Of a DNA stretch of 64,000 bases, positions 4,994 to 32,873 are shown in pieces. Position 1 is the stretch's first letter; each line of letters opens with the position of its first letter. The position numbers and the translations under genes are program-made. The notes below the pieces were generated by a model that saw nothing but the letters and a program-made list of their open reading frames with translations, ran no database searches and was not told the DNA's origin. The DNA is from Colwellia sp. (GTDB taxonomy: Bacteria; Pseudomonadota; Gammaproteobacteria; Enterobacterales; Alteromonadaceae): contig JAPHTO010000049.1 of NCBI GenBank assembly GCA_026196955.1, forward strand, positions 1 to 64,000, read 5' to 3'.

Positions 4994-4994
4994 A

Positions 4995-8748: not shown

Positions 8749-8769
8749 TTTTTCCCTCTATATTATAAT

Positions 8770-9177: not shown

Positions 9178-9201
9178 AAAAGCCAACATTGAGCTGGCTT
9201 T
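9178..9201 (-). terminator. Hairpin terminator downstream of the 125-aa gene
   Basis: AAAGCCA (9178-9184) and TGGCTTT (9195-9201) form a 7-bp stem. On the minus strand it is followed by TTTTAC. It lies 23 bases past the stop of the gene ending at 9224. Confidence 0.6.
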
Positions 9202-9223
9202 ATAGTTAAAATAAATATTACCG

Positions 9224-9601: not shown

Positions 9602-9613
9602 ATTAATTACTCC

Positions 9614-10027: not shown

Positions 10028-10051
10028 TTTATTTCCCCTTTTAGGTCATTT

Positions 10052-10090
10052 TTGGGTGCAAAAACCCAATTCAGCCTTTTTGACTGAATT
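10052..10090. other. Tandem hairpins between the AcrVA2-like and 137-aa genes
   Basis: TTGGGT/ACCCAA (10052-10069) and AATTCAG/CTGAATT (10068-10090) are adjacent inverted repeats. They may form a terminator or attenuator after the AcrVA2-like gene, or an operator for the downstream pair. The GGGT/ACCC core recalls the palindromes at 7732 and 8770. Confidence 0.45.
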
Positions 10091-10156
10091 AATTTTTTAA
10101 ATTCGTTAAGTTTTTATGCTATTAGAGTGTATAACTACACTGTGGTATGGCTGCTA

Positions 10157-11188: not shown

Positions 11189-11200
11189 ACACTTCTCCAT

Positions 11201-11727
11201 TTCTTGTTAGTAGGTGGGCATGACAAAATGTCAGTAAATATGCCCCCAAAGTTGTAATGATTTAAAAAGAATCATTTTTTTGTACTCATGTTGCTTAAAT
11301 TTAATTATTGTTTCTCAGTATTATTTTTACTGTGTTACAAATTTAAAATTAATTTAAATAAAAAACTTTCAATTTTTAAAATTTTTTTATTGCATTGCGA
11401 AAAAGATATATGATAATATAGCTGTAATATTGCCATACCTTCGATTTCTTGGTGTATTTTATAGAGTGGTTTTCAAAAGTCAATCAATTTCTTTGGTTGT
11501 TTCTCGTGTGTCTGCTTGTTTTTCCTACTATTTTTTTTGGTTTATTTTTTTATCGTTATTTATCAATGGATTATTGGTAAGGTTTTTTGTTGTGTTTTTT
11601 TTGATTGTATGTATTGAAAGGTCTATCTTTTGGGATACTTTTATTTATTGAATATAAAGTGTGTCTAAAGTCTTGATTTAATAAAACTACATGTAACATT
11701 GTTATTAAGTAACTTTAAGGACACAAA
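11201..11727. other. Long AT-rich gap upstream of the recombinase gene
   Basis: I see no convincing gene here; the 73-codon ORF at 11430 is a low-complexity Phe/Ser/Val frame. The only structure is near the right end: GTGTCTAAAGT (11661-11671) and ACTTTAAGGACAC (11712-11724), an imperfect inverted repeat directly upstream of the recombinase gene. It may be a resolution site or the recombinase's operator. Confidence 0.4.
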
Positions 11728-12276
11728 ATGAAAATAGGATATGCAAGAGTAAGTTCAACAGAGCAAAATTTAGAAGTACAACTAAAACAACTTCAAGAAA
11801 TAGGTTGTGAAAAAATATATCAGGAAAAGGTAAGTGGTAAATCAGCCGATAGGCCTGAATTGATTTCAATGCTGGACTTTGCAAGAGCAGGGGACATAAT
11901 TCATGTTACTAAAACTGACAGGTTAGCTAGGTCTACGATTGATGCATTACAAATAGCTGATGAATTGGAAGCTAAAGGGGTTGGATTAGTCTTACATGAT
12001 CTTGGTGATATTAATATTAATTCACAAGTTGGAAAGCTGATATATACGGTGATCAGTTCATTCGCTGAACTTGAAAAATCTAGGATATTACAACGTTGTG
12101 CAGAGGGTAGGGCATTGGCTAAATCCCAAGGCAAACACCTCGGTAGATATAAAAATGAAAAACTCCATGCTCAAATAAAAGAATTTTTTGCTAAAGGAAT
12201 GAATAAGAATTTGATATCAAAAACGCTTAAATGTTCTAGGACGACTATTTATCGAGTTTTGAATGGTAGTAATTAA
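11728..12276 (+). CDS. Serine recombinase, resolvase/invertase family
   Basis: The 182-residue product is a full-length small serine recombinase. The catalytic domain begins MKIGYARVSSTEQNLEVQL, with the nucleophile serine in YARVSS (Ser9 or Ser10). The conserved DRLARS motif and the SSFAELEKSRILQRCAEGR helix are present. The C-terminal HTH (NKNLISKTLKCSRTTIYRVL) binds DNA. Length and layout match Tn3-type resolvases and Hin/Pin invertases. It stands alone with no transposase, so it could resolve a transposon remnant, invert a segment or stabilise an element. AAGGA precedes the ATG. Inverted repeats just upstream may be its binding site. Confidence 0.93.
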   Translation: MKIGYARVSSTEQNLEVQLKQLQEIGCEKIYQEKVSGKSADRPELISMLDFARAGDIIHVTKTDRLARSTIDALQIADELEAKGVGLVLHDLGDININSQVGKLIYTVISSFAELEKSRILQRCAEGRALAKSQGKHLGRYKNEKLHAQIKEFFAKGMNKNLISKTLKCSRTTIYRVLNGSN

Positions 12277-12370
12277 TTTCTTCTATATTAAATAAACTTA
12301 TTTTACATCATAAGATTAATAGTTTGGGGATTTTAAATTTGATTAATAGCCAAACAATCAATAATATAAC

Positions 12371-12383
12371 CGTCATTATGACG
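12371..12383. promoter_or_regulatory. Perfect 13-bp palindrome upstream of the ABC-3C operon
   Basis: CGTCAT-T-ATGACG is a perfect inverted repeat ending 12 bases before the first start codon of the operon. Its position would block transcription or translation initiation, as expected of an operator. Confidence 0.5.
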
Positions 12384-12395
12384 TGTTTGTTTTAA

Positions 12396-13547
12396 ATGGA
12401 ATTTATCAAGACAGTGACTACCCCTAAAAATACTGCTGCTCTAAGTCAATTAGGAAATTTATATCAATACCTAATAGCATTAAAAATCTGTTTAGAGTCT
12501 GATGATGGTGAATTAGTTAATATTGAGCAATATGGTGATTTAACCACGGCTGATTATAATTATGAAATCAAACACCATAATGATCCAAATTACTCGTTAA
12601 TTGATACTCATATTGATTTTTGGAAGTCATTATCGAATTGGGTTGATAATAGAAATACACTTATATCCCATTCAAAGTTTATTTTACTGACCAGTGCTAT
12701 AGTAAAAGAAGACAGTACTTTTAAAGATTGGAATAGAGCTAAGTCAGAGACCAAGTATCAGAAAATCCAAGATATTCATTCAGCTATCAAAAAATCAAAG
12801 CATGAATATAAAACGCTTCAACCATATCTAAATAATATTTTTACTTTTAATGATGATTATACAGAAAAAGAGTTATTAGATGTTTTAGTCAAAGTAACAA
12901 TTAAACATTCATTTGAAAATGCCTATGCGCTTTATGAAAATTTATTAAATCATACTGCTTTTCTATTTTCCAAAATGAACCAAAGATCTTCACTAGTTCG
13001 ATCATTAATAGGCTTTATTGTTGAAAAGGGTGTTCTCTCACCTAAAGAATGGGATATTGAGATAAATGAATTCAGGTCTTTTCTTCAAGAGCAAGCGAGA
13101 AAAACTCTTAATAATGAAGTTTTAGACTTTCCTGATATTGAGCTATCTACTGAAATTGATAAAGCAACACTTGAGAAAAATTTTATAAAGAAGATTGCTG
13201 ACATCCCATATCCAGAGAAAATAAGTGAAGCGGCAATAAATTATACTCAAACACAAAATGTATTAGTTGTTATGGCTAGTCAAAACCCCCATGCACTTAA
13301 AGAGTTTGGTAAACAGGTTATCGAAGCAGGTCGACAGTTGGATAGCTTGAAAGAGATAATTTGCTTAGACGTTGAAACAAACAGTTTAAGTAAATTAATT
13401 AAAAAATCTAAAATACTGTATAACAAAGCAGGCTTAGAAATTCAAACAGGTAAAATTCCTCCAAATATTCAAAGCGGTATTATTCATACTCATATAGATG
13501 AATCTGATTTTCAGTGGAAAATTAAGGAAGAAGACATTGAAGATTAA
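12396..13547 (+). CDS. ABC-3C effector with nuclease-like N-terminus
   Basis: The 383-residue protein starts with a stretch (ALSQLGNLYQYLIALKICLE... NIEQYGDLTTADYNYEIKHH) that has the E-x4-D...E-x-K spacing of restriction-endonuclease-like folds, as in Cap4/DUF4297-type nucleases. The remaining ~280 residues are helical. In ABC three-component (ABC-3C) conflict systems the first gene usually encodes such a nuclease or other effector. The next two genes here are a middle component and a DUF3732-like ATPase, which supports that role. No clear ribosome binding site precedes the ATG, and a palindrome lies just upstream. The C-terminal ~130 residues (RKTLNNEVLDFPDIELSTEI onward) are probably the docking region. 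Function is inferred from context. Confidence 0.65.
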   Translation: MEFIKTVTTPKNTAALSQLGNLYQYLIALKICLESDDGELVNIEQYGDLTTADYNYEIKHHNDPNYSLIDTHIDFWKSLSNWVDNRNTLISHSKFILLTSAIVKEDSTFKDWNRAKSETKYQKIQDIHSAIKKSKHEYKTLQPYLNNIFTFNDDYTEKELLDVLVKVTIKHSFENAYALYENLLNHTAFLFSKMNQRSSLVRSLIGFIVEKGVLSPKEWDIEINEFRSFLQEQARKTLNNEVLDFPDIELSTEIDKATLEKNFIKKIADIPYPEKISEAAINYTQTQNVLVVMASQNPHALKEFGKQVIEAGRQLDSLKEIICLDVETNSLSKLIKKSKILYNKAGLEIQTGKIPPNIQSGIIHTHIDESDFQWKIKEEDIED

Positions 13548-14001
13548 TGAAATTGAAACGCTTTCTTTAAACCCATATTGGTTATCAAATATAATTTGCC
13601 ACTTTATCGAAGGATACGGTAATCATGCCCCATTTGAATTGATTTATTTAGCGACCCCTTTGATTTTAAGAGGTGAACCTCGTAATGCTCTTTGTAAATT
13701 AAATAAAACAAGCACTATTTATTCAGCATTTTTAGATGATAAAGATAAAAGAAAAAGAATAACAGCATTGCAATATTATGTTGAAGTCTATAAAGGCTTT
13801 GTTAATCCTGCTTTTATTGTTTATGCAAATAAAGGTAATGATTTTGGTCTTAAACTTACTAACAATAGTGTTTATGACTATACAAAAGAACGAGATAAAA
13901 CAACAAAAAATTATTTAAAAGCGGCACATAATTTAGGAGTCGTTTTTTCAAAAGAAAAAAAACAGGATTGCTTTTTTAAGCTTGGAGTGTTCAAGGTATG
14001 A
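13537..14001 (+). CDS. ABC-3C middle component
   Basis: The ORF track starts this frame at 13498, inside the previous gene. I prefer TTG at 13537, which follows a strong AAGGAAGAAG ribosome binding site and gives MKINEIETLSLNPYWLSN, 154 residues. The sequence (LNPYWLSNIICHFIEGY, YLATPLILRGEPRNAL) fits the small middle-component family (MC3/DUF6521-like) of ABC-3C systems. These link effector and ATPase. The stop overlaps the start of the ATPase gene (ATGA), and the start overlaps the end of the effector gene by 11 bases. This gives tight translational coupling and probably fixed stoichiometry. Confidence 0.7.
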   Translation: MKINEIETLSLNPYWLSNIICHFIEGYGNHAPFELIYLATPLILRGEPRNALCKLNKTSTIYSAFLDDKDKRKRITALQYYVEVYKGFVNPAFIVYANKGNDFGLKLTNNSVYDYTKERDKTTKNYLKAAHNLGVVFSKEKKQDCFFKLGVFKV

Positions 14002-15905
14002 ACAGTTATATTAAGAAAATTATTATTTTTGGAAAAGATAATCAAAAAAGGGAACTTAGCTTAACAAATGGTCTTAACATTATTTCAGGTCATTCAAAAA
14101 AAGGAAAAAGTGCTCTAATTGAAATTGTAGATTATTGCTTATGTGCAACAGTACCTTCAATCCCTAAAGGGGTGATTTCTGATTTTGCTGCGTTATTTTG
14201 TATTGTACTTAAAGTAGATAAAAACTTTTTAGTGATAGCTAGACCAAATAATAATGATACTCAAAGCAAAATTTATGTATCACTAGAAACGGATGTCAAT
14301 TTCTTAAAAAATTTTGATATTTCATATTTTGAAAACCAACCATTATTAAAAATTAAAGGTGCTGGTCAAGATAATATTGAAAAATTTTTAGGGTTAAATA
14401 TCGCTGATTCTAATCTTACTGAATCTGATGTTAAAAAAGGTAAAGCTTCTTTACGAAATATGACTCCTTTTTTATATCAATATCAAAATTTGGTTGCGAG
14501 TAAACATGCTCTGTTTTCCAAGATGGATGATTATAATCGAAAAGCTAGAATATTAGAGCAAATACCTATTTTCTTAGGTATTGTTGATGCTGAGTATTAT
14601 TCAATTAAGCGTCAAATTGATGAATTAGAAAAAAAATTAAAAGGTATTGAACGAGAGAAAAATAAAGAAACATTGTTTAATACTCAATATGAAAAGAGGT
14701 TAGAAGGACTTTGTAGAAATTATTTTGCAATTATAGGTAAAGAACTACCTAATTTTAATAGTCTGACTAATTTAATAACGATAACAAAGGAATTACCCGA
14801 ATTTGATCAATCTGAGCCATTCAAATCAGACTCTACAAGGTTATATAGTAAATTAAGAGTAAAGCTTTCAACTAAATCTTTAAGATTAAATACGATAAAT
14901 ACCGAGTTACAGAAAATAGAAAACATTGCTAAAAATGCTAAAAAGTCTATTTCAAACCTTTCACATATCAAAAAGCGTAGTGAGGCAGTTGAAATCATTG
15001 ATTGCTTATGTCCTGTGTGTGGTAATGGTGTTGATTCACTATCTGAAGAAGCTAATTCTATCAATTCAGCGTTGGATTCGTTGAACATAGAGGTTGGTTC
15101 TATGGTCGGTTTCGCTAGATTTGATGTCGAACAAATGGAAACACTTAAGCATGAAAAAAGAAACCTCCAAAAAGAAATAAGTGAAATTAATACTCAGATT
15201 AATGAATTTGAAGATTTCAACAAAAAGACAAAAGAATATAAAGATAAAAGAGATTCTTTAGCTTTTTTACGGGCAAAGGTTGAAGTTATAGTTGAACAAA
15301 TTAGTAATAAAATTCAAATTACAGATTTTGGCGAAAAAGGAATTATCAGTGAGCTGAAGTTACTAAGAGAATCACTTACAAAATATGACTTTAAGAAAGA
15401 TCTGGCTGAGTGCCAGTCAAAGCTAAATATGTGGATGAATGAAATAGCGAACCATTTGGATTTTGAGGAGCAGTTTCTTCCAGCGAAATTAGAGCTTAAC
15501 TTAAATACTCTATCAATAATTCATAATGATAAAAATTACGGTCGAATCCGTTTATCAGACTTAGGTAGTGGCGCAAATTGGTTAGCATTTCATTTATCAG
15601 CATCTCTTGGTTTTCTTAAGCTATTTTCGTATAAAAACAAATCACCTGTACCTAATTTTTTATTCATTGATCAACCGAGCCAAGTTTATTTTCCTAGAGA
15701 CGTTGATAGTCATGATAATGATATTAAAAAAGTTGAAAATATATATATTCAAATAGTGAAGACTTTAAAGAAAGGTAGAAAGGAAAGTGGTAAATATTCA
15801 CAAGTAATTGTTTTAGATCATGCTGACAATTTAGATCTTAAGGAATATCGTTATAAACGTTATGTAAGAGCTAATTGGTATGAGTCAGGCGATGCTTTAA
15901 TTTAA
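13998..15905 (+). CDS. SMC-like DUF3732 ATPase of an ABC-3C system
   Basis: The 635-residue protein has a Walker A loop at residues 31-38 (GHSKKGKS) and a long coiled coil at ~200-330 and ~370-450. A zinc-hook-like CPVC sits at 338-341 in the coil tip. It also has an ABC signature-like LSDLGSGANW and a Walker B FLFIDQPS in which the catalytic Glu is replaced by Gln. A VIVLDHAD strand holds the H-loop His. This is the DUF3732 class of SMC/Rad50-like ATPases found in ABC-3C systems, thought to sense invaders and unleash the effector. It is the last gene of a tightly overlapping trio. The D-Q variant Walker B is usual in this class. Confidence 0.85.
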   Translation: MNSYIKKIIIFGKDNQKRELSLTNGLNIISGHSKKGKSALIEIVDYCLCATVPSIPKGVISDFAALFCIVLKVDKNFLVIARPNNNDTQSKIYVSLETDVNFLKNFDISYFENQPLLKIKGAGQDNIEKFLGLNIADSNLTESDVKKGKASLRNMTPFLYQYQNLVASKHALFSKMDDYNRKARILEQIPIFLGIVDAEYYSIKRQIDELEKKLKGIEREKNKETLFNTQYEKRLEGLCRNYFAIIGKELPNFNSLTNLITITKELPEFDQSEPFKSDSTRLYSKLRVKLSTKSLRLNTINTELQKIENIAKNAKKSISNLSHIKKRSEAVEIIDCLCPVCGNGVDSLSEEANSINSALDSLNIEVGSMVGFARFDVEQMETLKHEKRNLQKEISEINTQINEFEDFNKKTKEYKDKRDSLAFLRAKVEVIVEQISNKIQITDFGEKGIISELKLLRESLTKYDFKKDLAECQSKLNMWMNEIANHLDFEEQFLPAKLELNLNTLSIIHNDKNYGRIRLSDLGSGANWLAFHLSASLGFLKLFSYKNKSPVPNFLFIDQPSQVYFPRDVDSHDNDIKKVENIYIQIVKTLKKGRKESGKYSQVIVLDHADNLDLKEYRYKRYVRANWYESGDALI

Positions 15906-15931
15906 TATTGTATTAACAAGGATGTTAATTA

Positions 15932-17629
15932 ATGAAAATACCACTAGGTGTTGATAAAGCAACTTCTAAATTAGTACTAATTAATGATTTGACAGAAGAG
16001 CAAAGAGGTTTAAAGAGTAATTGTATTTGCCCTGAATGTAAGTCCGATTTGGTTGCTAAAATGGGAGATAAAACCATTTGGCATTTTGCTCACTATAAAG
16101 GAACTGAAAGTAGAAACTGTCAAGAAACAGCACTTCATTTACTCGGTAAATATGTACTCTCCAAATTAGATTCAATTAAATTACCACCGTATAAAATTGG
16201 TTGTAGAAATCAAAAAGATATTTTGAAACGTTCTTATTCTATGGATGATATTTCAATTTTTGGTGAGGAAAATTTATTAATAATATCTTCGGAACAGGAA
16301 AAAACAATAGGGGATATTAAGGGAGATGTATTTTCTAAAGTTCAATATACTAATAATAACTTTTTTATAAACTTTGAAATTAATGTTTGGCATAAAGTTG
16401 ATGAAGTTAAGTTAGAAAAGATAAGGAAATTAAATATATCTACAGTTGAAATAGATTTAGCTCATTTATTAAATGAAAACCAAGTTGATTTTGATATTGT
16501 GAAAGCAGAAATAAATAAGGCAATTAATCAGCGTATTATATTTTTAGCTAATGATATAACCGAACCATTCCGAACTGAATTAAAAGAAAAACTCGATAAA
16601 AAAGTTAAGGCTAAAAATAACCAAATATCTAGGTGGGCTAAAGAAATTGAAGAAAACTTAACTTCCAATGGTGTGACACTTCCAACATATACCTTTTCTC
16701 TTGAATACTTCGCAAATGATGAAATCCAGAAAGTAATTGATAGTAAATTGGGCGCAGAACCTAAAATAGAAAAAAAGGTTCAAGTGATTAAGTTTAAACA
16801 TGTCCATGATAATCAATTTGAAATGTTATGTTCATTAGGAAATAAAACTAAAGAGTTAGTGGTTTTAGCTGATATTAATGAATTACCCACGTCTAATAGG
16901 TATAAGAACGCAGCACCTAGTTACCTTATTTTTAATGAAATTTTTTTGGATTCTTCTAACAAAAATATTCTGTTTGAGTGGGGAGAAAATGAAGTTGCTT
17001 TAAATTATCAAAAAAAATACAACTCAATAGTTAAATCCGAATTGAAGAAAATTAAAGCTAAAAAGTTGGAAAAAATTAATAAATATTTGGAACAGGTAGA
17101 TCAAATTTTTGAGTCAGATGTAATGCCTATATCCCCGAATTTATTACAAATAAAAAAACAAGCTAATTGTTACTATAAAGAACTCATTCAAAAAGGTTAT
17201 TCTGAAGAAAGGTTAAAGTCAGTAGTTGATGAGTATATAGATTATCAACACATATACGGCTGTGAACCTAAGTATTGGCAGCTAATTGCCTTTAGAGACA
17301 TACATTGGGTCGATAATGATACTATTGATATCGAGTTCCTTTCTAAACGCCTTACATCACTTGGTGTTACGCTTGTAGACCCATATAAGCAACTGTTGTT
17401 CAACTCAAAGTTAATGAAAGCAAATAATGTTGATTTACCTTTTACTACTCCATTCTCAATGTTAAAAATGTATTTGAATCATTTAATGGGATTAGGATTG
17501 TTAAAAAAAGGTAGAGGAGCAAGATATCAAAAGCAATTTAGGTATGGGAAATCGTATAAATCATTAAAACTTAATGATAAAGAAAATTATTTAAAAGTTG
17601 AAAATCAATTGATTGATATTAAATTTTAA
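15932..17629 (+). CDS. CoiA-like protein (competence/nuclease family N-terminus)
   Basis: The 565-residue protein begins with a CoiA-like module: CICPECKSDLVAKMGDKTIWHFAHYKG (residues 31-57) has the CxxC and HFAH signature, with a third Cys at 63 (NCQE). It continues into a beta-rich segment (INFEINVWHKVDEVKLEKIRKLNISTVEIDLAHLL) matching the CoiA nuclease-like fold. The remaining ~380 residues are Lys-rich and helical without clear motifs. CoiA proteins are linked to competence, but this wider family is common in defence islands. It begins 26 bases after the ATPase gene with an AAGGA ribosome binding site, so it may be a fourth gene of that operon. Confidence 0.7.
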   Translation: MKIPLGVDKATSKLVLINDLTEEQRGLKSNCICPECKSDLVAKMGDKTIWHFAHYKGTESRNCQETALHLLGKYVLSKLDSIKLPPYKIGCRNQKDILKRSYSMDDISIFGEENLLIISSEQEKTIGDIKGDVFSKVQYTNNNFFINFEINVWHKVDEVKLEKIRKLNISTVEIDLAHLLNENQVDFDIVKAEINKAINQRIIFLANDITEPFRTELKEKLDKKVKAKNNQISRWAKEIEENLTSNGVTLPTYTFSLEYFANDEIQKVIDSKLGAEPKIEKKVQVIKFKHVHDNQFEMLCSLGNKTKELVVLADINELPTSNRYKNAAPSYLIFNEIFLDSSNKNILFEWGENEVALNYQKKYNSIVKSELKKIKAKKLEKINKYLEQVDQIFESDVMPISPNLLQIKKQANCYYKELIQKGYSEERLKSVVDEYIDYQHIYGCEPKYWQLIAFRDIHWVDNDTIDIEFLSKRLTSLGVTLVDPYKQLLFNSKLMKANNVDLPFTTPFSMLKMYLNHLMGLGLLKKGRGARYQKQFRYGKSYKSLKLNDKENYLKVENQLIDIKF

Positions 17630-17689
17630 ACTCACTATATTTATCAAACGCTATAGCTATTATTTTTATACAAAAACAAGGGAATTTTG

Positions 17690-19327
17690 ATGGAACAAAG
17701 TGATTCAGGAAATGTAGTTTTAATAATTACTCTTATAATATTTTTTACACCTCTAATATTAGCGTGGTTGTCAAAGCGAAAGCGTAAAAAAATCGAAGTA
17801 GAATATGAAGAAGCTAAACAAAAGCTAAATATTGCTACGAATCAGGTTGAAGAGCTAACGAAAAAATATAGCCCAATAATTGATATCGAGTTACATGTTC
17901 AACAATTAATTGATGAAGCTGAAGAAGCTTCTGCATCTAATATCTCGCAATCAGAAACCATTTTAGCTAAAGCTGAGGCTAAAGCTAAAGAACTTTCAAT
18001 TACTAGTCATTCTAAAGCTGAAGCACTAATAACTGATGCTGAAATAGAAGTTGTTAATATTAAGGCTGAATCTAAAGAGTTAAATGCTAAAGCGAATCAA
18101 AAACTAAAGGATACTAGGGAAAAAGTAGTAGTTTTGACTAATGAGGCTCATGAAGAAGCAAATCGTATTGTTGAGTTAGCTAAAGTTCAGGCACAAGAGA
18201 TTGCTGGCGATGCATATGATGCTAAGTTAAAAGCAGACTCATATGAGACAGCAATAAGAGCAATGAAAAATACTATCGAAGGTTATAAAGATGATTACAT
18301 CATCCCAAATCATTCAGTATTAGATGATTTAGCGGAAGAGTTTAGTTTTAAAGATGCAGGTGAACAACTAAAGCAAGCCAGAAAACGAGTTAAAGATATG
18401 GTCAAACAAGGTCATGCTGGTGATTGCGATTATGTAGAGCCTCATAGGAAGACTTATGCCATTCATTTTGCTGTAGATGCATTTAATGGAAAAGTAGACT
18501 CGGCATTAGCAAAGGTTAAGCACGATAATTTCGGAAAAATTAAACAAGAAATTATTGATGCTTTCGCACTTGTTAATCACAACGGAGCACCTTTTAGAAG
18601 TGCTAGGATCAATCAGTCTTTTTTAGATGCTCGTCAAGAAGAGTTGAAATGGGCAGTTTCGACACATGAATTACGTCAAATTGAATTAGCGGAACAACGT
18701 GAAATTAAACAACAGATTCGAGAAGAAGAAAAAGCTCGAAAGGAAATGGAAAAGGCAATTAAAGAGGCTGAGAAAGAAGAGCGAATGATTCAAAAAGCTT
18801 TGGAAAAGGCTAGAGCTGAGTTAGCTAATGCCAATGCAGAGCAACGCAAAGAATTTGAAGCACAGTTAGCTGATTTAGAAGGCAAGTTAGAAGAAGCTGA
18901 AGAGAGAGGCCAGAGAGCAATTTCAATGGCTCAACAAACCAGACGTGGACATGTTTATGTTATTAGTAATATTGGTAGCTTTGGTGAGAATGTGTTTAAA
19001 ATTGGGATGACAAGACGATTAGAGCCATTAGACAGAGTGAAAGAGCTTGGCGATGCATCAGTGCCATTTTCATTTGATGTTCATGCCATGCTGTATAGTG
19101 AAGATGCTCCATCTTTGGAAAAAGAATTACATAAACGTTTCAATCGAGAATCAGTGAATAAAGTTAATCCGAGAAAAGAATTTTTCAGAACATCACTTGC
19201 CGAAATAAAGCAAATGGTAGACCAGCAAGGTGTTACTGAAGTTCACTGGACAATGAAAGCAGAAGCTACAGAATACAGAGAATCTATTGCAATTGAAGCA
19301 GCTCAGAGAGAAGAGGAAGTTGCTTAG
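17690..19327 (+). CDS. Coiled-coil protein with DUF4041 and GIY-YIG-like T5orf172 domains
   Basis: The 545-residue product has an N-terminal TM segment (~7-25), then a coiled coil rich in Ala/Glu/Lys to ~residue 190. A DUF4041-like region (~195-330) and a second coiled coil follow. A C-terminal T5orf172/MUG113-type GIY-YIG domain begins at ~425 (GHVYVISNIGSFGENVFKIGMTRR) and includes a conserved Glu (SLEKELHKRF). I start at ATG 17690 and not TTG 17687 because AAGGGA lies 6 bases upstream. The family is widespread in phages and islands and is thought to be a nuclease. It follows the CoiA-like gene with a 60-base gap and may belong to the same module. Confidence 0.85.
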   Translation: MEQSDSGNVVLIITLIIFFTPLILAWLSKRKRKKIEVEYEEAKQKLNIATNQVEELTKKYSPIIDIELHVQQLIDEAEEASASNISQSETILAKAEAKAKELSITSHSKAEALITDAEIEVVNIKAESKELNAKANQKLKDTREKVVVLTNEAHEEANRIVELAKVQAQEIAGDAYDAKLKADSYETAIRAMKNTIEGYKDDYIIPNHSVLDDLAEEFSFKDAGEQLKQARKRVKDMVKQGHAGDCDYVEPHRKTYAIHFAVDAFNGKVDSALAKVKHDNFGKIKQEIIDAFALVNHNGAPFRSARINQSFLDARQEELKWAVSTHELRQIELAEQREIKQQIREEEKARKEMEKAIKEAEKEERMIQKALEKARAELANANAEQRKEFEAQLADLEGKLEEAEERGQRAISMAQQTRRGHVYVISNIGSFGENVFKIGMTRRLEPLDRVKELGDASVPFSFDVHAMLYSEDAPSLEKELHKRFNRESVNKVNPRKEFFRTSLAEIKQMVDQQGVTEVHWTMKAEATEYRESIAIEAAQREEEVA

Positions 19328-20031
19328 GTTTAACATTGCTATATATAGCCAGACTTGGAATAATTTAGTTAGGTAGGAATGTGAAATACGTTATGACCCT
19401 GTAACATATTTTATATCCTACCTGACAGTATCTATACTGAATAACTCTACCATTTCCAATGCTACATCAGACATAGCCCAATAAGTTTGTACACCTCATA
19501 TTTTCATAAAATTTTCTGAATTGGATTAAATAATATAATTTTGAAACTATATTATTATAAATGAATTGTTTTTGTACCCCTATATGTACCTTTTTAAAGT
19601 AAGTTTAAATTATCCTTTAATATCAATGGGATTTCATAATCGTGCCAGTAATGATTGGGTATTAAGAAATTTGGGTATATCTATTATAATTTATTATTTT
19701 CCATAATTTTCGCGATCCCATATACAGTACTATTATATATTTTAAAAATTTTAGTTGATTGATAAATAAGGTAAATTTATTTCTCTCTTTTCCAAAAACT
19801 CTTATTTTTCTGGTTGCACTATAATATATAAAGCACGGTAACTTATTGTTTAGTATGCAAATAACTCATTTTTTTACCGTATTCCAGACACATACACTTT
19901 TAACTAAATATCCTAATATATGAGATGGAGTCTACTTACAGCATTTAAAATAGTTCAATCAGAACTGTTTAAAAAACAATCGAAGATGTGATAGTGTTGT
20001 TAAGTTCATCTTTTTATAAAGGGACTTATTT
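19328..20031. other. Long AT-rich gap before the five-gene cluster
   Basis: No gene of reasonable quality is visible in this 704-base stretch. Two similar short motifs, TTTGTACACCTCATA (19486-19500) and TTTGTACCCCTATAT, are too short to be meaningful. It should hold the promoter of the downstream cluster. Such long AT-rich gaps usually mark boundaries between modules in islands. Confidence 0.5.
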
Positions 20032-21057
20032 ATGAAAAAGTTATCTCTGGTTTATCTAACCTTCCTGCTCTCAGCCTGTAGTAGTTTACCAAACCTTGAT
20101 GTTGGCTATTATTTACCTAAATCACAAGTAGTGATTACAGTAAATCAGATAGTTGCATGCAAAGATGTAGCAAACTGGAGCTATACAGTTTTAAATACAA
20201 TCGATATAGAAGAGCAATACTCTGCTGATACGTCATCTATTAAATACATAAGCCTTAAAAATATTGATTCTTGGTATAGTAAATCAGATATTGAAATTGG
20301 TTTAAAAGATGATGGTCGATTATCTTCAATCAATAGTTCAAATTCTGGTCATGTTGGCGAATATGTCGATAAGGTTGTCAGTCTAGTCAGTAACATTAAG
20401 AGCCAAGAGATTAAGCCTGATTCTCATATCTGCGATTTTGTTGTTAAACACCATGAAACAAAATTTGATAAAGCTATAGGTATATATACGCTTAACTTGG
20501 TTTTTAAAGCTAGAAATGACTTTACTAACAAAGTCGATAATAAAATACATTTTAAACCAATGAATATCACTTCTGCTAATTATAATAGTTATTCAGATTT
20601 TTTAGGCTCCATCTCAGGTAGTTTTACAAACACTAATACGCATTCAACAGAACACTTTAAGAATATTAAAGACATTACTAATACTGAATTTATTGTATTT
20701 AAAGTACCTTTATTAGTTAAAGTTCAAGTTGATGTTATTAATAAGTCTCCTACAACTGCATCAAAAACTGTTAAAGCTCCTCACCTAAGCAATAAGGAAT
20801 ACAAATTACCAATACCTTCCGCACCGTTATTTGGAACCAATGGATTTGCAATAACACTAAATGAAAAAGGTGAAGTTAATAAAATTAAATACTCATCCGA
20901 TAATTCAGGAGCTGGAGGTGTGGACGCATTAACTAAGTTATACACCTTAAAAGAAAGTGATAAAGAAAAGGTGACAGAGTTAAATACTCAAGCAGACTTG
21001 ATAAAAGCTCAAGAAAGATTAGCCAAATGTCAGTTAGAGCCTAGTACTTGTGAATAA
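20032..21057 (+). CDS. Lipoprotein, first gene of a five-gene cluster
   Basis: The 341-residue product has a lipoprotein signal peptide with lipobox LSAC (Cys16), so it should be attached to the envelope. The mature part is beta-rich with Ser/Asn/Lys-rich loops and ends in a short Gln/Glu helix with two Cys (AKCQLEPSTC). I recognise no family. GGGAC precedes the ATG. The next gene starts 31 bases later, and all five genes to 25,175 run the same way with short gaps, so the lipoprotein is likely part of a common function: an envelope sensor, or the anchor for the secreted MBL enzyme. Confidence 0.7.
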   Translation: MKKLSLVYLTFLLSACSSLPNLDVGYYLPKSQVVITVNQIVACKDVANWSYTVLNTIDIEEQYSADTSSIKYISLKNIDSWYSKSDIEIGLKDDGRLSSINSSNSGHVGEYVDKVVSLVSNIKSQEIKPDSHICDFVVKHHETKFDKAIGIYTLNLVFKARNDFTNKVDNKIHFKPMNITSANYNSYSDFLGSISGSFTNTNTHSTEHFKNIKDITNTEFIVFKVPLLVKVQVDVINKSPTTASKTVKAPHLSNKEYKLPIPSAPLFGTNGFAITLNEKGEVNKIKYSSDNSGAGGVDALTKLYTLKESDKEKVTELNTQADLIKAQERLAKCQLEPSTCE

Positions 21058-21088
21058 TATTAAAATTACTATTTTAGGTTAATATAAA

Positions 21089-22366
21089 ATGAAATTATTA
21101 ATGTTTTTAAGTTTTTTGATTACAGGTATGAGCTTTGTTTTTAATGTGTCTGCATATGAAAATTTATACGTTACTCCAAACGATAAAATTAAAAACTATC
21201 TTAAGGTTAGGCAGGATTGGAAAAATGCTAACAACTTAAGTGGTAAGTTATATCCTAATGAAAAAGCCATACTAATTGAAAATATTCCTAGGTGGAGAAA
21301 AATTAAATTATCCGATGGGAAAGTTGGGTTCGTTAGTAAATCTTATTCAAGTGTAATAAATCCTGTAAATGACAATAATGAAGAAAAGAAACTTAATGAA
21401 ATGGTCATTCATTATTTACCCATCGGGGCTGGTTCATGTTCTATAGTTGAGTGTGCTGGAGATAATGCTAGGCCACTGATTGTAGATTGCGGTTCTTTTT
21501 CTAAATCAGCTAGAAGTGACTCAGATTTTGATGAAATTCAGGTGAAAAATTATTTTAATAAAATATTATCAAAATATACGTTATCTCCTAATGTTGTCAT
21601 TAGTCATCCTGATAAAGATCATTTGAGTTGGATTGATGATGCATTAGATGATGTAGCTGTAAATTCAATTTGGTTGGGTGGAGACTTTAATAATTATAAG
21701 AGAAAAGATTTCAAAAGTTGGCTCAAAAAACAAAAAGAAAAAGGAGCAAAGATTTACAAGGATCTTGGACATAATTGGCATAATAATGCACAGCCTATTT
21801 CTGAGTTGCAATGTGGTTTAGCTTCGACTTTTGCCTTAACTTCAAATGTAGGTGATAGCAGTGGGAGTATTAAAAATGGCAATAGCTTGGTTATTTCTAT
21901 TGAATATAATGAGTTTGTAACTGTCTTTAGTGGCGATGCTGAAGATGAAACCGAAAAGTCTGCTATTAAAAACTATGATGGCGCACTTAAAACAACCGTT
22001 TTAACGTCTTCTCATCATGGTGCCGAGTCTCATGGGAGTAATGGCATTAAAAATGGTGGGAGAGGTCAATCTAAGTGGGAAGAATATACTTCCCCATCTG
22101 TTTTAATCACTAGTGCTGGATATAAAAAGTATGGACACCCAAGATGTGGTGCTTTGAAGGGGTTTTATGATTATATAAAAAAAATAAATACTCCCCATAT
22201 GGTTTCTTGCGGTATTAACAATAATAAATTCAAGACTTATACAACTGGTAGAGCTGAATATGTTACGGAAAATAATGGTGTAATTAAAGTTACAACTAAC
22301 GGGTATTCACCGCTAAGAGTTAAGTGTTTAGGTGAGTCTTCATGCGATGATACTATTTATTTTTAA
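21089..22366 (+). CDS. Secreted SH3b-MBL hydrolase of the ComEC type
   Basis: The 425-residue protein has a signal peptide (~1-22) and an SH3b-like domain at ~35-90 (LKVRQDWKNANNLSGKLYPNEKAILI). A metallo-beta-lactamase domain follows from ~106. The metal motif is SHPDKDH (His173, Asp175, Asp177, His178), the ComEC-type HxDxDH variant, followed by FSGDAEDE and LTSSHHGAESHG. This makes it a likely phosphodiesterase or nuclease of the ComEC hydrolase class acting in the periplasm. An SH3b domain often binds cell-wall peptides. Three downstream genes appear cytoplasmic or membrane-bound, so the module spans compartments. No defect in the active site is visible. Confidence 0.85.
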   Translation: MKLLMFLSFLITGMSFVFNVSAYENLYVTPNDKIKNYLKVRQDWKNANNLSGKLYPNEKAILIENIPRWRKIKLSDGKVGFVSKSYSSVINPVNDNNEEKKLNEMVIHYLPIGAGSCSIVECAGDNARPLIVDCGSFSKSARSDSDFDEIQVKNYFNKILSKYTLSPNVVISHPDKDHLSWIDDALDDVAVNSIWLGGDFNNYKRKDFKSWLKKQKEKGAKIYKDLGHNWHNNAQPISELQCGLASTFALTSNVGDSSGSIKNGNSLVISIEYNEFVTVFSGDAEDETEKSAIKNYDGALKTTVLTSSHHGAESHGSNGIKNGGRGQSKWEEYTSPSVLITSAGYKKYGHPRCGALKGFYDYIKKINTPHMVSCGINNNKFKTYTTGRAEYVTENNGVIKVTTNGYSPLRVKCLGESSCDDTIYF

Positions 22367-22401
22367 TAAGAATATCATTTTAAAAATTAAAAGGGATTAA
22401 T

Positions 22402-23322
22402 ATGAGCAATTTAGACCAATGGAAAAATAAAACTGTTGAAGAATTAATAAACCGTCCTAAGGTTGAATTATCTCCTCAAGAGATGGAAAGAAGACAAATA
22501 TACTCATCACTATTATTTGCGATTACAGCCTATTACTTTAATGGAAATAAGTATGGAGATAATAATAATTACCCTCTAAACCCGAAGAACTTGAAAAGTG
22601 ATAGTTACTTGGGGCATAACATTGCTGCATTAGCTGTAAACAAGCATGGAGAAGTCATAGATTTTGAATTTAATCATAATAGACTTTTTAGTAGCTCAGT
22701 TGAGCACGCAGAATCAAGGTTGATTAGGCGTGTTTTTTCGTTAACCCAAGTCCATAATTCTTGGAAAGATGATGCTCAAGATTTACCTAAAAAATATGGG
22801 AATCTATTATCTGAAGTTTCCGTTTATACAACCCTCGAATCTTGTACTCAATGCACAGGCATAATGACACTAGGTGATGTAAAAAATGTTATATATTTGC
22901 AAGATGATGCTGGTATGTATCACATAGGAAATATAGTTAAAAATTTAACAGATGGGCAAGGGTTTATTGAAGCACCATTACCTATATCTGGTATTGAAAT
23001 AGAGTTCGATCTTTATGATGAGTTAAATGATGCATTTATACAGTTTAAGACACAGCAACGCTCTAAAGAAGGTTTACCCTTTGTTGTTTTTCCAAATGGA
23101 GAAGAAAAATATACATCATCTATAACTTCATTTCTTTGTACTAAAGAAGCATATAATATCTTCAAAAAAGGATTAGATAAATTGGAAGGATTTGAATTGA
23201 ATTATGCTGATTTCCAGCCTAATGAAAAAGCAATGTCAAATAAAGAAGTTTTAGAAGAATGTGTCAGTTTTTATGCTTATGCAACATCAATGGGAAAAAG
23301 AGGAACGCCACATCGTATGTAA
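22402..23322 (+). CDS. Zinc-dependent nucleoside/base deaminase-like protein
   Basis: The 306-residue protein has the cytidine/guanine deaminase active site: VEHAES (His102, Glu104) and TLESCTQC (Cys148, Cys151) coordinate zinc and supply the proton shuttle. The spacing is normal for the CDA fold. The rest is larger than a housekeeping deaminase, with an N-terminal helical extension (~1-65) and a C-terminal ~110-residue addition that may provide specificity. Substrate cannot be told: free nucleotide, RNA or DNA are all possible. AAAGGGA precedes the ATG. The gene lies between the MBL hydrolase and the small TM protein. Deaminases in such clusters are often anti-phage or toxin effectors, which is inference here. 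Confidence 0.85.
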   Translation: MSNLDQWKNKTVEELINRPKVELSPQEMERRQIYSSLLFAITAYYFNGNKYGDNNNYPLNPKNLKSDSYLGHNIAALAVNKHGEVIDFEFNHNRLFSSSVEHAESRLIRRVFSLTQVHNSWKDDAQDLPKKYGNLLSEVSVYTTLESCTQCTGIMTLGDVKNVIYLQDDAGMYHIGNIVKNLTDGQGFIEAPLPISGIEIEFDLYDELNDAFIQFKTQQRSKEGLPFVVFPNGEEKYTSSITSFLCTKEAYNIFKKGLDKLEGFELNYADFQPNEKAMSNKEVLEECVSFYAYATSMGKRGTPHRM

Positions 23323-23379
23323 AGTAAATTTTATATAAAGATAACAATAAAATAATTAATATTTAATAAAGGAAATTTC

Positions 23380-23727
23380 ATGGAAGTTAAAGTTCGTTGG
23401 GAAGTATCGCCCAAAATGTTTGATATAGTAAAAGAAGAATTTAATGCTAATGATATTAAATATAGAAAAGGGCTAGGTTTTGATCCTATATCGGGAGTGG
23501 TTGTAGCACTATCCGTAACTTTGTTGATAAAAATTGCATTGAAAGCTTTGAAAGATACAAAGTATTGCGGGGTCATCATTGATACAACAAAAACTCCAAT
23601 AGAAGTGAAAGAAATGCCTAATTGGGATCGAAATCAAATGTTACTAATTAGTGATAAAGGAGCTGAAATAAAGAGTTTCACCAATAAAGATGATGATGTT
23701 AAATCATTAATGAAGCTTATTAAGTAA
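23380..23727 (+). CDS. Small one-TM protein, possible EACC-type adaptor
   Basis: The 115-residue protein has an N-terminal beta-alpha segment (VKVRWEVSPKMFDIVKEEFN), a central hydrophobic helix (PISGVVVALSVTLLIKIALKAL, ~46-67) and a beta-rich C-terminus. This layout resembles small effector-associated constant components (EACC1-type) proposed as adaptors in multi-gene conflict systems. I offer that as a low-confidence resemblance, not an identification. AAGGAA precedes the ATG. The next gene starts 14 bases after its stop. The protein could anchor the deaminase or peptidase to the membrane. No enzyme motif is visible. Confidence 0.65.
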   Translation: MEVKVRWEVSPKMFDIVKEEFNANDIKYRKGLGFDPISGVVVALSVTLLIKIALKALKDTKYCGVIIDTTKTPIEVKEMPNWDRNQMLLISDKGAEIKSFTNKDDDVKSLMKLIK

Positions 23728-23741
23728 TTAAAGGAAATAAA

Positions 23742-25175
23742 GTGACTATATTGTTTGATAAAAGCGTTGTTTTTTATCATGATTCGAAAGGCTCAGAAAA
23801 AGTAAAACTCGATGAAATGATTAAATCGAATGGTCATTTTCCTGATGTACATGATACTCATAATACGTTGTTAACACATGTCAATGCAGCTATTAGCGGC
23901 GATTTGTTAGCAATTAATTTATCAAAGCCAAAGCGTGTTGTTGACAATAAACCATATAAAGCTCTGATTTATATTACAACTGAGGTTGATGAAGTTGCGA
24001 GGTGTACTAATGAGGGTGATTATTATTTAATTACATTAAGTTATAGCCTAATTTGTCGGATAGCTTTGATTGCAAGTCGGTTAGATGAAGTCATTATATG
24101 TAGAAGAGAGAAACAAAATTTTGGGGATGAAAAAAGAGCAGATAACGGTAGTGAAACATATCAAGATGCAGAGCTTCCCCATGATGATTTTTTATTTGGG
24201 CTATTAGCTAGGAGTGAAGATATAAATCAAACAGATGCTTTAAGGGTTTCTGACTCATGGATTCCTAATTGTAAAGATCATGGTTTTGGAACTCATATGG
24301 TTTTTTATGATTTAGTGCGTATGATTGTCCTTCATGAACTTGCTCATTGCATATTTGGTCATCTTGAAATAGTTGAAAATACTTTGGGATTGATGTCTTT
24401 GCAAGAGCACGAATTAAATAGTAATCAAACGGGACTGTCTGATAAAGAAAATGAATTGCTTCAATCCATTGAGTTTGAGGCAGATCGCATCGCGATATCT
24501 TCTATGACTGCCCAAATTTTAGTTGGATTTGATCCTGCGTGGGTGTTGTTCTCAAATGCAGATATTGAAATTGCAGATAGATTATCTGTATTAAATTTGT
24601 CTATAGCTATTTTTAGTTCACTTTGGGACATGAATGAAATCAAAAAGGGAATTTCAGCTCTTCCCCTTGCTGAAAGGGTTTCCAAAATTATTGATAGTAC
24701 TCATCCCCCTGCAATACTCAGGTATGCAAATATGTCTGAATTTATGTTAAGAAACTCATCTGGAATAGCACTAAAATTTAATATATCTGATCTTGCAATA
24801 AATACTGTTGAGGCAAAAGATAATTTAAATTTGAAGATGATATTAAATCAAGATCCACTCCAAACAGTATTAGAAGTTATAACTAGGCAATACTCAACTT
24901 TTTATATCGTAAAGATGAAAGAGGTTTGTGAATATTTTCATCAATATTTAGCTGCACAAGGGCCACTCAGGTTTTCCAGAAGACTAGATAGGCCTATCAA
25001 CTCGTATAATCAGAAATTGTCAGATTCAATGGGAATTGTCAGGTATAGTACTTTGAGTAAAATTTACCTCAGTTCTAATCAAGATTTTTTCAATATGCAG
25101 GAATTTTATTATCCTACTTTATTAGTTAAAACATCTAAATCGGAATCACTTGAGCTAGAAGATATATACTTTTAA
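23742..25175 (+). CDS. HExxH zinc metallopeptidase, last gene of the cluster
   Basis: The 477-residue protein starts with GTG, preceded by AAGGAA. It carries a gluzincin-type active site, HELAHCIFGH (residues 198-207), with a downstream EFEAD (~244-248) as third ligand, as in M48-like peptidases. No signal peptide or membrane segment is visible, so it is probably cytoplasmic. The N-terminal ~180 residues have no recognised domain. The C-terminal ~200 residues are helical. As the last gene of the cluster it may be the executioner: activated proteolysis of a host or invader protein, or of the deaminase. The opposite-strand ORF 24461-24685 is a shadow. Confidence 0.85.
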   Translation: MTILFDKSVVFYHDSKGSEKVKLDEMIKSNGHFPDVHDTHNTLLTHVNAAISGDLLAINLSKPKRVVDNKPYKALIYITTEVDEVARCTNEGDYYLITLSYSLICRIALIASRLDEVIICRREKQNFGDEKRADNGSETYQDAELPHDDFLFGLLARSEDINQTDALRVSDSWIPNCKDHGFGTHMVFYDLVRMIVLHELAHCIFGHLEIVENTLGLMSLQEHELNSNQTGLSDKENELLQSIEFEADRIAISSMTAQILVGFDPAWVLFSNADIEIADRLSVLNLSIAIFSSLWDMNEIKKGISALPLAERVSKIIDSTHPPAILRYANMSEFMLRNSSGIALKFNISDLAINTVEAKDNLNLKMILNQDPLQTVLEVITRQYSTFYIVKMKEVCEYFHQYLAAQGPLRFSRRLDRPINSYNQKLSDSMGIVRYSTLSKIYLSSNQDFFNMQEFYYPTLLVKTSKSESLELEDIYF

Positions 25176-25461
25176 ATGGCTCATATCTTTAACTAATAAA
25201 ATGTGAATAAATCTTTTTCAATACACATGCACTGTTTATTGGTGATAATAATTACAATTTTTGGAATACACTCCCTATTTGGGGGCATGCCTAGGGATTC
25301 GAATTCTTCTTGTGTTAGCAAAATATGATGTAGATATTATATAACTTCAATATTCATCATTTTTAGCCTTAACTCTGTCACAGTTGTCTGTCACACAAAT
25401 GTTATGTTATAATAAAGTTCAATAAAATCATTTTGTTATGTGATACTTGAAGTTGGGTTGA
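25176..25461. other. Island right-end flank, no gene
   Basis: AT-rich sequence between the peptidase gene and the attachment scar. It includes a direct repeat TCTGTCACA at 25374-25382 and 25387-25395. Short direct repeats close to an attachment site can be arm-type integrase sites, but nothing more supports that here. Confidence 0.4.
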
Positions 25462-25481
25462 GAATCTCTCGCTCACCGCCA
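25462..25481 (+). other. tRNA-Ser 3'-end fragment: genomic-island attachment scar
   Basis: GAATCTCTCGCTCACCGCCA reads as the T-loop end (GAAT), T-stem 3' strand (CTCTC), acceptor strand (GCTCACC), discriminator G and CCA of a serine tRNA. The sequence to its left does not form the other half of the T-arm, and no GGTGAG acceptor partner lies 85-95 bases upstream, so this is a fragment and not a gene. The natural reading is attR of an island integrated in the 3' end of tRNA-Ser. The original terminator follows it. Confidence 0.8.
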
Positions 25482-25504
25482 TATATATGGACTATAACGT
25501 CCCT

Positions 25505-25542
25505 AAAAAAGCTAAATCATTAGAGCAATGGTTTAGCTTTTT
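25505..25542 (+). terminator. Strong rho-independent terminator following the tRNA scar
   Basis: AAAAAGCTAAATCATT (25506-25521) and AATGGTTTAGCTTTTT (25527-25542) form a 16-bp stem with one G-U pair and a T-tail. It was probably the terminator of the interrupted tRNA-Ser gene. Confidence 0.85.
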
Positions 25543-25844: not shown

Positions 25845-26897
25845 ATGAAAAGCGGTAAAGATACTAGCATACTCATAGTTGATGATATTTCTGAAAATAT
25901 TCAGGTAGCCATGAATATTTTAAGAGAAGAAAACTATACATTCTCTTTTGCTAATGATGGAGAAGAAGCTTTAGTTTTAATCAAGCAAGAAAAATTTGAT
26001 CTTATTTTGCTAGATATCATGATGCCAAAACTCAATGGGTTCGATGTTTGTCAGCAGTTGAGCCTAATGCCTGATAAGAAAGATACCCCTGTTATTTTTC
26101 TTACAGCAAAAAGTGATGTGGATGCTATCGCTAAAGGCTTTGACGTTGGAGGTGTCGATTATATTATTAAGCCTTTTCATGCGTGCGAGTTATTAGCCAG
26201 AGTTAAAACACATTTAGACTTGTCTTTCACCAAAAAATTATTAGCTCAAAAAAATGCAGAGCTGGCCTTAAAAGCTGATTTGCAAGGAAAGCGGCTCCTT
26301 AGGGAAGTGGAAGAAAACCAACGAGAAATGATCTATGTGCTGATGGAGGTCATGGAGTCAACCTCGGATGAAACGGGTAAGCATATCAAGCGCGTTGCAG
26401 AAAGCTCAAAACTATTAGCGCATTACACTGATTATTTGACCGAAGATGATGAAGTTGTCATTTTTCATGCTGCCCCCATGCATGATATTGGTAAAATTGC
26501 GATTCCAAAAGAAATACTGCACAAGCCAGGTAAATTAACACCTGAAGAATTTGCTATCATGCAAACTCATGCTGAGAAAGGGAAGGACTATTTAAAAAAC
26601 TCTAAACGAAAATTGTTAACTGCTGCAGCTATTATTGCCCATGAGCATCATGAAAAATGGGATGGTACTGGATATCCTCGAGGGCTAAAAGGTAATGAAA
26701 TTCATATATTTGGACGAATCGTTGCTCTTGCTGATGTTTTTGATGCCTTAACTCACAAAAGACAATATAAGCATGCTTGGACGATAGATGAGGCGGTTGA
26801 GCATATTAAATCGTTGAGCGGAATACAGTTTGATCCTAGTTTAGTCAATATTTTTGTCGAACATTTACCTGAATTCATCGCAATTATTAAAGAATAA
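25845..26897 (+). CDS. Response regulator with HD-GYP phosphodiesterase domain
   Basis: The 350-residue protein has a REC domain (~8-125) with acceptor Asp57 (LILLDIMMP) and conserved Lys109. A linker coiled coil leads into an HD-GYP domain (~160-345). HD-GYP motifs are intact: HD at 213-214 (APMHDIGKIAIP) and HHEKWDGTGYP (268-278), so it should hydrolyse cyclic di-GMP. This is the RpfG-type layout. Its stop overlaps the start of the following sensor kinase gene by one base (TAATG), so phosphorylation by that kinase is the obvious control. AGGAG-like sequence precedes the ATG. It is the first core gene right of the island scar. Confidence 0.95.
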   Translation: MKSGKDTSILIVDDISENIQVAMNILREENYTFSFANDGEEALVLIKQEKFDLILLDIMMPKLNGFDVCQQLSLMPDKKDTPVIFLTAKSDVDAIAKGFDVGGVDYIIKPFHACELLARVKTHLDLSFTKKLLAQKNAELALKADLQGKRLLREVEENQREMIYVLMEVMESTSDETGKHIKRVAESSKLLAHYTDYLTEDDEVVIFHAAPMHDIGKIAIPKEILHKPGKLTPEEFAIMQTHAEKGKDYLKNSKRKLLTAAAIIAHEHHEKWDGTGYPRGLKGNEIHIFGRIVALADVFDALTHKRQYKHAWTIDEAVEHIKSLSGIQFDPSLVNIFVEHLPEFIAIIKE

Positions 26898-31149: not shown

Positions 31150-31179
31150 AAAAGGGCGCTTCAAATGAAGCGCCCTTTT
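31150..31179. terminator. Bidirectional terminator between the sensor kinase and lipA
   Basis: AAAAGGGCGCTTCA (31150-31163) and TGAAGCGCCCTTTT (31166-31179) form a perfect 14-bp stem with a 2-base gap, flanked by A and T runs. It serves both convergent genes. Confidence 0.92.
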
Positions 31180-31198: not shown

Positions 31199-32209
31199 CT
31201 ACTTAACTTCTTCGCCTGCGGCTTGTTTGTCGGCGTGATAAGAAGAGCGTACTAAAGGTCCACAAGCTGCATGCTCAAAGCCCATTTTAGTCGCCTCTTC
31301 TTGGAACATAGCAAAGTCATCAGGGTGAACATAACGCTCTACGGGTAAGTGATCTTTACTTGGTTGCAAGTACTGGCCAATTGTTAACATAGTGACGCCA
31401 TGACTGCGTAGATCGCGCATCACCTCGAGTATTTCTTCATTTGTTTCGCCTAAACCAACCATTAAGCCTGATTTAGTGGTTACATTAGGATTTGCTTCAC
31501 CAAATTTTTTCAATAGATCTAATGACCATTTGTAGTTCGCGCCAGGCCGAGCCTTGGTATATAAACGTGGTGCTGTTTCTAAATTATGATTAAAGACGTG
31601 AGGTGGGTTTTTATTGAGTATCTCTAATGCTCTGTCCATGCGACCACGAAAGTCTGGCACAAGAATTTCAATTTTAGTGTTCGGCGCTTGTTCGTTAATT
31701 TCTTTAACGCAATCAGCAAATTGTTGTGCACCGCCATCGCGTAAATCATCACGATCTACAGAAGTAATGACTACATACTTCAGCGCCATATCTTTTAGAC
31801 TCATCGCCAATTTTTTCGGCTCTTCAGTATCTACGGCTAATGGGCGACCATGGCCAACATCACAAAACGGACAGCGGCGAGTACAAATATCGCCTAAAAT
31901 CATAAATGTAGCAGTACCGTGATTAAAACATTCAGACAGGTTAGGGCATGAAGCTTCTTCACAAACAGAGTGTAATTTATGCTTGCGTAAGTTAGCTTTG
32001 ATGCCATCAATGCGCTCACTTGAACGAGGCAGCTTGATGCGTAGCCAATTGGGCTTACGCAACATGCTTTCTTTAGTTGAGCTAACAACTTGAATAGGGA
32101 TATGTGCCATTTTATCGGCATCACGTAATTTTGTACCGGGCGCCATTTTAGCTGATTTTTTAACGGCGGTATTTGTTTGGCTTTCGTCTTTAGACATTTG
32201 CTTGCTCAT
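31199..32209 (-). CDS. lipA: Lipoyl synthase
   Basis: This radical-SAM enzyme inserts two sulphurs into octanoyl-lysine to make lipoate on the E2 and GcvH proteins. [13 protein letters not shown] supplies the auxiliary 4Fe-4S cysteines and [10 protein letters not shown] the radical-SAM CxxxCxx[11 protein letters not shown] and [13 protein letters not shown] match the LipA N-terminus. The ORF track starts at 32242, inside lipB; I prefer Met12 (32209, [10 protein letters not shown]). This leaves a 20-base overlap with lipB and a length of 336, close to the E. coli enzyme (321) plus a short extension. It is co-transcribed with lipB and ybeD. Confidence 0.96.
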
Positions 32210-32873
32210 AACTGCTTGGTAATCCTGTTTGGTATTCAACATTGCTAGCTTTTAGCAAGTTGATGGCATGTTTTACTAGCGCATCACTGGCGCTGTTGAT
32301 ATCTTGTGGACCTTGTAAATCACAAGTTTGCACCATTTCAAGGCCGGCATAACCACACGGGTTTATGCGTAAAAAAGGTGATAAATCCATGTTTACGTTC
32401 AGTGCTAAACCATGAAATGAGCAACCTTTGCGTACGCGTAAACCGAGTGAGGCAACTTTTTTATCATCAACATAAACACCGGGTGCGTCAGGTTTAGGAT
32501 ATGCATTGATATTATAATCATTCAAAGCTGCAACTATGCTCTTTTCGATCAAGGTTACTAGCTCTCGTACGCCTATTTTTTTGCGACGTAGGTTGATCAT
32601 AAAGTAAATGACTTGTTGACCCGGGCCGTGATAGGTGACTTGACCGCCTCTATCTACTTTAACCACTTCAATATCACCGGGCATTAATAAATGCTCTTCT
32701 TTACCCGCTTGCCCTTGAGTAAATACAGGCGGGTGCTCAACTAACCATAGTTCGTCGGATGTTTGCTCATCGCGATTATCAGTAAAGTTCTGCATAGCGT
32801 GCCAAACTTTACTGTAATCCATAGTATTTAGTTGCCGTATAATCAAAGGGAGGCTAGCTATAGGCTCAGACAC
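32190..32873 (-). CDS. lipB: Octanoyltransferase
   Basis: LipB moves octanoyl from acyl carrier protein to lipoate-dependent enzymes, the step before LipA. The 227-residue product has the family motif [21 protein letters not shown] (~75-95), the catalytic Lys in [12 protein letters not shown], and the catalytic Cys in [13 protein letters not shown] (~170). Length is normal. The gene lies 38 bases downstream of ybeD and overlaps the start of lipA, making a ybeD-lipB-lipA operon as in E. coli and its relatives. Confidence 0.95.

Follow-up and report, generated by a model that had tools for sequence, protein, structure and literature searches.

A displaced tRNA-Ser(GGA) 3' end as the probable attR of a defence-carrying genomic island in a Colwellia sp. 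draft genome

Layout of the locus

We analysed a 64,000-nucleotide stretch (the window) of the draft genome of a marine Colwellia sp. (3.97 Mb in 167 contigs). The features that we recognized in it are collected in Table 1. Base composition shifts across a 20-mer, GAATCTCTCGCTCACCGCCA, found on the + strand of the window at 25462-25481: GC content is 0.309 to the left of it and 0.394 to the right, with the first 5.6 kb on the right intermediate, at about 0.35. Since the window and its contig (C121) share their first base, the other edge of any island ending here is out of sight.

Table 1. Features of the window, in order of position
Feature	Position	Strand	Remarks
Insertion sequence right end, contig break	1..98		Also at other contig ends
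C-terminal part of putative replication-initiator-like gene, cut by the insertion sequence	99..842	+	No homologues found
Right-hand part of proposed genomic island	99..25461		GC 0.31
AbiH abortive-infection protein	2323..3276	-	Cargo
Serine resolvase	11728..12276	+	Cargo or sub-element
Lamassu-like operon	12396..15905	+	LmuA 12396-13547, LmuC 13498-14001, LmuB/DUF3732 13998-15905
DUF4041 + T5orf172 protein	17687..19327	+	Phage-associated family
Five-gene cluster	20032..25175	+	Candidate defence module; ends just before right arm
Paired arm-type repeat TCTGTCACA-N4-TCTGTCACA	25374..25395	+	13-bp period; right arm of element
Possible third, inverted arm-like site TTATGTGAT	25436..25444	-	By eye; weak
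Probable attR core, displaced tRNA-Ser(GGA) 3' end	25462..25484	+	23 bp same as 3' end of intact gene plus TAT
Intrinsic terminator after attR	25506..25542	+	Small hairpin 25489-25502 before it, as in G007
Response regulator-HD	25845..26897	+	Site-variable accessory gene between attR and lipA
Hybrid sensor kinase, 1398 aa	26897..31093	+	Site-variable accessory gene between attR and lipA
Bidirectional terminator, lipA 3' end	31150..31179		Nearly identical stem directly after tRNA-Ser in G007
lipA	31199..32242	-	Start of conserved right flank; G007 has the same order, lipA-lipB-ybeD-thiolase-hemL

The five-gene cluster nearest the 20-mer encodes a lipoprotein-like protein, an MBL hydrolase that weakly matches anti-phage MBL proteins, a deaminase-like protein, and unknown proteins of 115 and 477 aa. 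Two further proteins from the AT-rich side (7780-8748 and 10157-11200) had no Pfam match; the second belongs to phrog_6160, a phage family of unknown function.

A tRNA-Ser fragment and its intact counterpart

When the whole genome was searched with up to two mismatches, one other copy of the 20-mer was found. It is exact (G000:C26:7595-7614, - strand) and forms the 3' end of an intact tRNA-Ser(GGA) gene on contig C26 (7595-7684, - strand). An earlier note on this DNA had read the 20-mer as a tRNA-Ser 3' terminus and had proposed just such a genome search. The exact identity between the fragment and the intact gene reaches 23 bp (GAATCTCTCGCTCACCGCCATAT, 25462-25484). Within the window the 20-mer occurs once (chance expectation 0 at up to three mismatches), ARAGORN found no complete tRNA there, and a search between 25485 and lipA found no second tRNA fragment. 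The fragment overlaps no coding sequence; the reading frames around it end at 25175 and begin at 25845.

A strong terminator was also claimed for this spot, and a hairpin terminator does directly follow the fragment (-20.8 kcal/mol for a 64-nt stretch, z -5.7). Among the relatives compared, the best match to the 3' flank of the fragment is the 3' flank of tRNA-Ser in G007 (at about the 99.9% point of shuffled flanks), and both flanks present a small hairpin and then a strong terminator. It is because of this flank match and shared hairpin layout that we read the terminator as the tRNA gene's own. Most simply, it is the original terminator of the host tRNA-Ser gene, displaced together with its 3' end, and the terminator adjoining the intact tRNA on C26 was brought by the island.

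Integrase and accompanying genes on C26

Starting from nadA, C26 carries tRNA-Ser, a hairpin terminator, a paired repeat and, in the same direction, the gene for a 661-aa integrase. After this come a relaxase-like gene, UmuD-like and UmuC-like genes and an SRAP gene, and then the contig ends. The expectation of an intact tRNA-Ser with an integrase beside it was therefore right as to both genes, which lie outside the window, but they are on a separate contig whose adjacency to the window the assembly does not show. Island DNA has nearly the same GC content on the C26 side (0.310) and in the left 25 kb of the window (0.309), against 0.39 for the flanking DNA.

The integrase has a tyrosine-recombinase domain (Pfam PF00589; PHROG integrase). 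Residues R492, K521, H604, R607, H630 and Y641, which we take to be those expected for tyrosine-recombinase catalysis, are invariant in six homologues. The close homologues in GTDB genomes all lie downstream of tRNA-Ser (nine of nine; eight GGA and one TGA), and more distant relatives are at other tRNAs, where any tRNA is near. Two of the nine have attL and attR on one contig, at a distance of 6.5 kb in Thalassotalea algicola (G143) and 5.3 kb in Litorilituus lipolyticus. The site seems to have been used repeatedly, because G030, G032 and G017 appear to retain remnants of an integrase at this tRNA: there the sequence after tRNA-Ser, read by eye, resembles integrase upstream regions, and the full gene is missing.

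Other tRNA-Ser sites of this integrase family have further neighbours. In Rheinheimera sp. D18 (L063 3964-12003) two integrases of the family stand in tandem after one tRNA-Ser, followed by an apparent TraD-like coupling protein and an apparent conjugative relaxase/helicase. In Psychromonas ossibalaenae (L071 16502-21349) the DNA after the tRNA-Ser integrase encodes an apparent antirestriction-type protein and an apparent type I restriction HsdR.

The gene after the C26 integrase encodes a relaxase-like HUH motif (LHDES...NHLHIIVS). Homologues are present in two related elements, and a third holds a fragment; no family or sequence match to the gene was found in Pfam, NCBIfam or the PDB. A structural model of the protein is of low confidence (mean pLDDT 53.9), and its top PDB match is weak (4ht4, E 0.08); this entry is, we assume, a relaxase, the nicking enzyme of staphylococcal plasmid transfer. 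The model thus gives only a hint that the gene encodes a relaxase.

No phage structural or packaging genes were found among the island proteins searched (with Pfam, and eight proteins in PHROGs), the search covering the parts of the island on C26 and C121. For these parts a prophage identity is not supported.

Paired repeats at both edges

A pair of TCTGTCACA repeats just inside the fragment is the sole match to this pattern in the window (expected under a Markov-1 model: 0.0 per 64 kb). The same pair occurs once in C26:1-20000, at 7516-7537 (L003), 13 bp before the integrase start, so that on both contigs a pair sits just inside an att site. Pairs are also present at attL and attR of the elements in T. 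algicola and in Colwellia sp. 39_35_sub15_T18 (G022), and at the left end of elements in G041, G156 and G166. The pairs look like integrase arm-binding sites, and their presence at both edges ties the window fragment independently to the C26 integrase. The inverted TTATGTGAT nearer the fragment may have a counterpart, TTATGTGAC, in the right arms of the T. algicola and G022 elements, although this match is weak and was made by eye.

The uninterrupted site in a relative and the right flank

On one contig of G007 we find nadA, tRNA-Ser, terminator, lipA, lipB, ybeD, thiolase and hemL. This is the left flank of C26 joined to the right flank of C121, as joining both edges predicts. A relative without the island had been proposed as a check, and G007 indeed has tRNA-Ser adjoining the right-hand genes of the window, in the orientation predicted. 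Of the relatives examined, G007 alone showed tRNA-Ser next to lipA; in the others lipA and nadA lie on different contigs or are separated by at least 27 kb.

The assertion that everything to the right of the fragment is core did not hold. The response regulator and hybrid kinase genes (25845-31093) are missing at this site in G007, so conserved synteny starts at lipA (about 31150), where the stem at 31150-31179 marks its beginning. The kinase has three solute-binding domains. The pair is at other loci in G022, G018, G026 and G033 and possibly moves as a unit; it may have arrived here before the island, or may have been lost from G007.

Contig breaks and island length

At their ends C26 and C121 each carry the 80 terminal bases of the same insertion sequence, whose ends are TGTTCTGCACAA.../...TTGCAGATCA with apparent 3-bp target duplications. 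This multi-copy insertion sequence occupies positions 1-98 of the window and the ends of 14 other contigs, and breaks the assembly in many places. We found eight right ends and seven left ends of it in the genome, and three pairs of contigs could be put together by a shared 3-bp target duplication and a reading frame that continues across the break. C26 and C121 have different 3-bp flanks (GTT and GAG, respectively), and no sequence overlap joining the ends of these two contigs was found.

One reading frame, replication-initiator-like, may be shared between C26 and C121, although a join made through it is only suggestive. For its first half no homologue turned up in plasmids or phages; for the second half none turned up in plasmids, in viral contigs or among 296 genomes from the order. 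We set aside a pairing of C26 with contig C57, which also has the flank GTT. The interrupted gene on C57 encodes the C-terminal part of a helicase-type protein of 888 aa that has no counterpart on C26; as this differs from the C26 gene, a simple insertion joining C26 and C57 is unlikely. If the parts on C26 and C121 adjoin, the island would span at least about 33 kb; it may be longer, or rearranged, since the assembly does not join the two contigs, both broken in the insertion sequence.

Discussion

We conclude that 25462-25484 is very probably (roughly 0.93) the attR of a genomic island that entered the tRNA-Ser(GGA) gene at its 3' end through tyrosine-integrase recombination. On this reading the island would have carried its own copy of the last 20 tRNA bases, so that the tRNA gene on C26 would be a host/island hybrid that stays intact. 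The host's original tRNA 3' end, with its original terminator, would have been pushed to the far end of the island, now in the window. The element's enzyme would be the 661-aa integrase, whose gene on C26 begins 13 bp beyond the arm repeats. Bound to the paired TCTGTCACA sites close to either end, this integrase would carry out the crossover inside the 23-bp identity. From these arrangements we infer that the enzyme is active and binds the arms, that the island can be excised, and that C26 and C121 are still physically adjacent.

A possible objection is that the locus is composite, the fragment being a true attR whose right-hand part on C121 was split from the left-hand part on C26 by recombination between insertion sequences. 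The two contigs do end in the same multi-copy insertion sequence, their target triplets differ while that of C26 matches C57, and the numbers of right and left ends found, eight and seven, point the same way. Yet the gene interrupted on C57 is not that of C26, and the island DNA on C26 and C121 is equal in GC content and has matching arm repeats. We regard such a rearrangement as an unlikely but serious alternative. Less probable again is tandem accretion, where the fragment would be the junction of the integrase island with an older element that brought the response regulator and kinase and whose own right att site has decayed. This would account for a gene pair lying between attR and lipA that G007 lacks there and four relatives have elsewhere, and it has parallels in the tandem integrases at this tRNA in Rheinheimera sp. 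D18 and in G022, where attR is followed by a remnant resembling the left arm of another element. Against it, neither a second tRNA fragment nor an integrase remnant was seen between attR and lipA, and the sequence on the right side of attR looks like the flank of the uninterrupted host tRNA in G007.

A lone short tRNA 3' fragment could also come from degradation, as a chance match or decayed tRNA pseudogene with no relation to integration. We consider this explanation close to negligible, given the exact 23-bp identity, the switch between island and host composition, the arm repeats, the integrase next to the intact tRNA and the unoccupied site of G007. Integration into tRNA-Ser(GGA), with the window fragment as attR, remains our preferred reading.

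Islander defines an island by an intact tDNA and a displaced 3' fragment with a tyrosine integrase, the tRNA and fragment being on one replicon and 2-200 kb apart (PMC4383910). The present element resembles Islander islands in its displaced 3' fragment, restored tRNA, integrase beside the tRNA and predicted orientation: the tRNA gene is complete and the fragment reaches its 3' end, clear of any coding sequence; the tyrosine integrase lies inside the island with its catalytic residues kept; and, by comparison with the contiguous G007 site, the fragment is downstream of the tRNA in the same orientation. It differs from them (PMC4383910) in that fragment and tRNA are on two contigs, each broken in an insertion sequence.

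Close likenesses are the elements of T. algicola and L. lipolyticus, which share a homologous integrase, the tRNA-Ser target, paired arm repeats at both ends and a relaxase-like neighbour gene. Those elements are compact, at 6.5 and 5.3 kb, whereas the accessory DNA of the present island, with its defence genes, comes to at least 33 kb if the two contigs belong together. The gene with a relaxase-like HUH motif after the integrase also recalls integrative mobilizable elements, although that gene has no family match and only a weak fold match.

In the KplE1 prophage, the IntS integrase gene lies just downstream of argW in the same orientation, and its promoter overlaps the attL arm sites or recombination site (PMC2951348). 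Our element has the same layout of tRNA then integrase, here with arm-type repeats immediately upstream of the integrase start, and this makes autoregulation of the integrase through an attL-side promoter a reasonable prediction by analogy. Unlike KplE1 (PMC2951348), it uses a different tRNA and has no phage structural genes among the proteins searched.

The element is of a known kind, a well-supported example of the common tRNA-targeted island, whose mechanism is well known, and the general picture of such islands is unchanged. The titles and abstracts that we searched on islands at tRNA-Ser or in the host's order included none describing this element. Tentatively, and with the odds against it, the integrase clade (with its 13-bp-spaced TCTGTCACA arms, its dedication to tRNA-Ser and an uncharacterised relaxase-like gene) may represent a family of mobilizable elements in Alteromonadales that has yet to be described and that ferries anti-phage systems; one of these, the metallo-hydrolase/deaminase module at 20032-25175, may itself be new. 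In this genome, the right edge of a defence-carrying island is fixed to the base and linked to an integrase, a target gene and recognition repeats. Draft genomes often place a tRNA and its fragment on different contigs, and the arm-repeat signature offers a direct way to delimit related elements in them.
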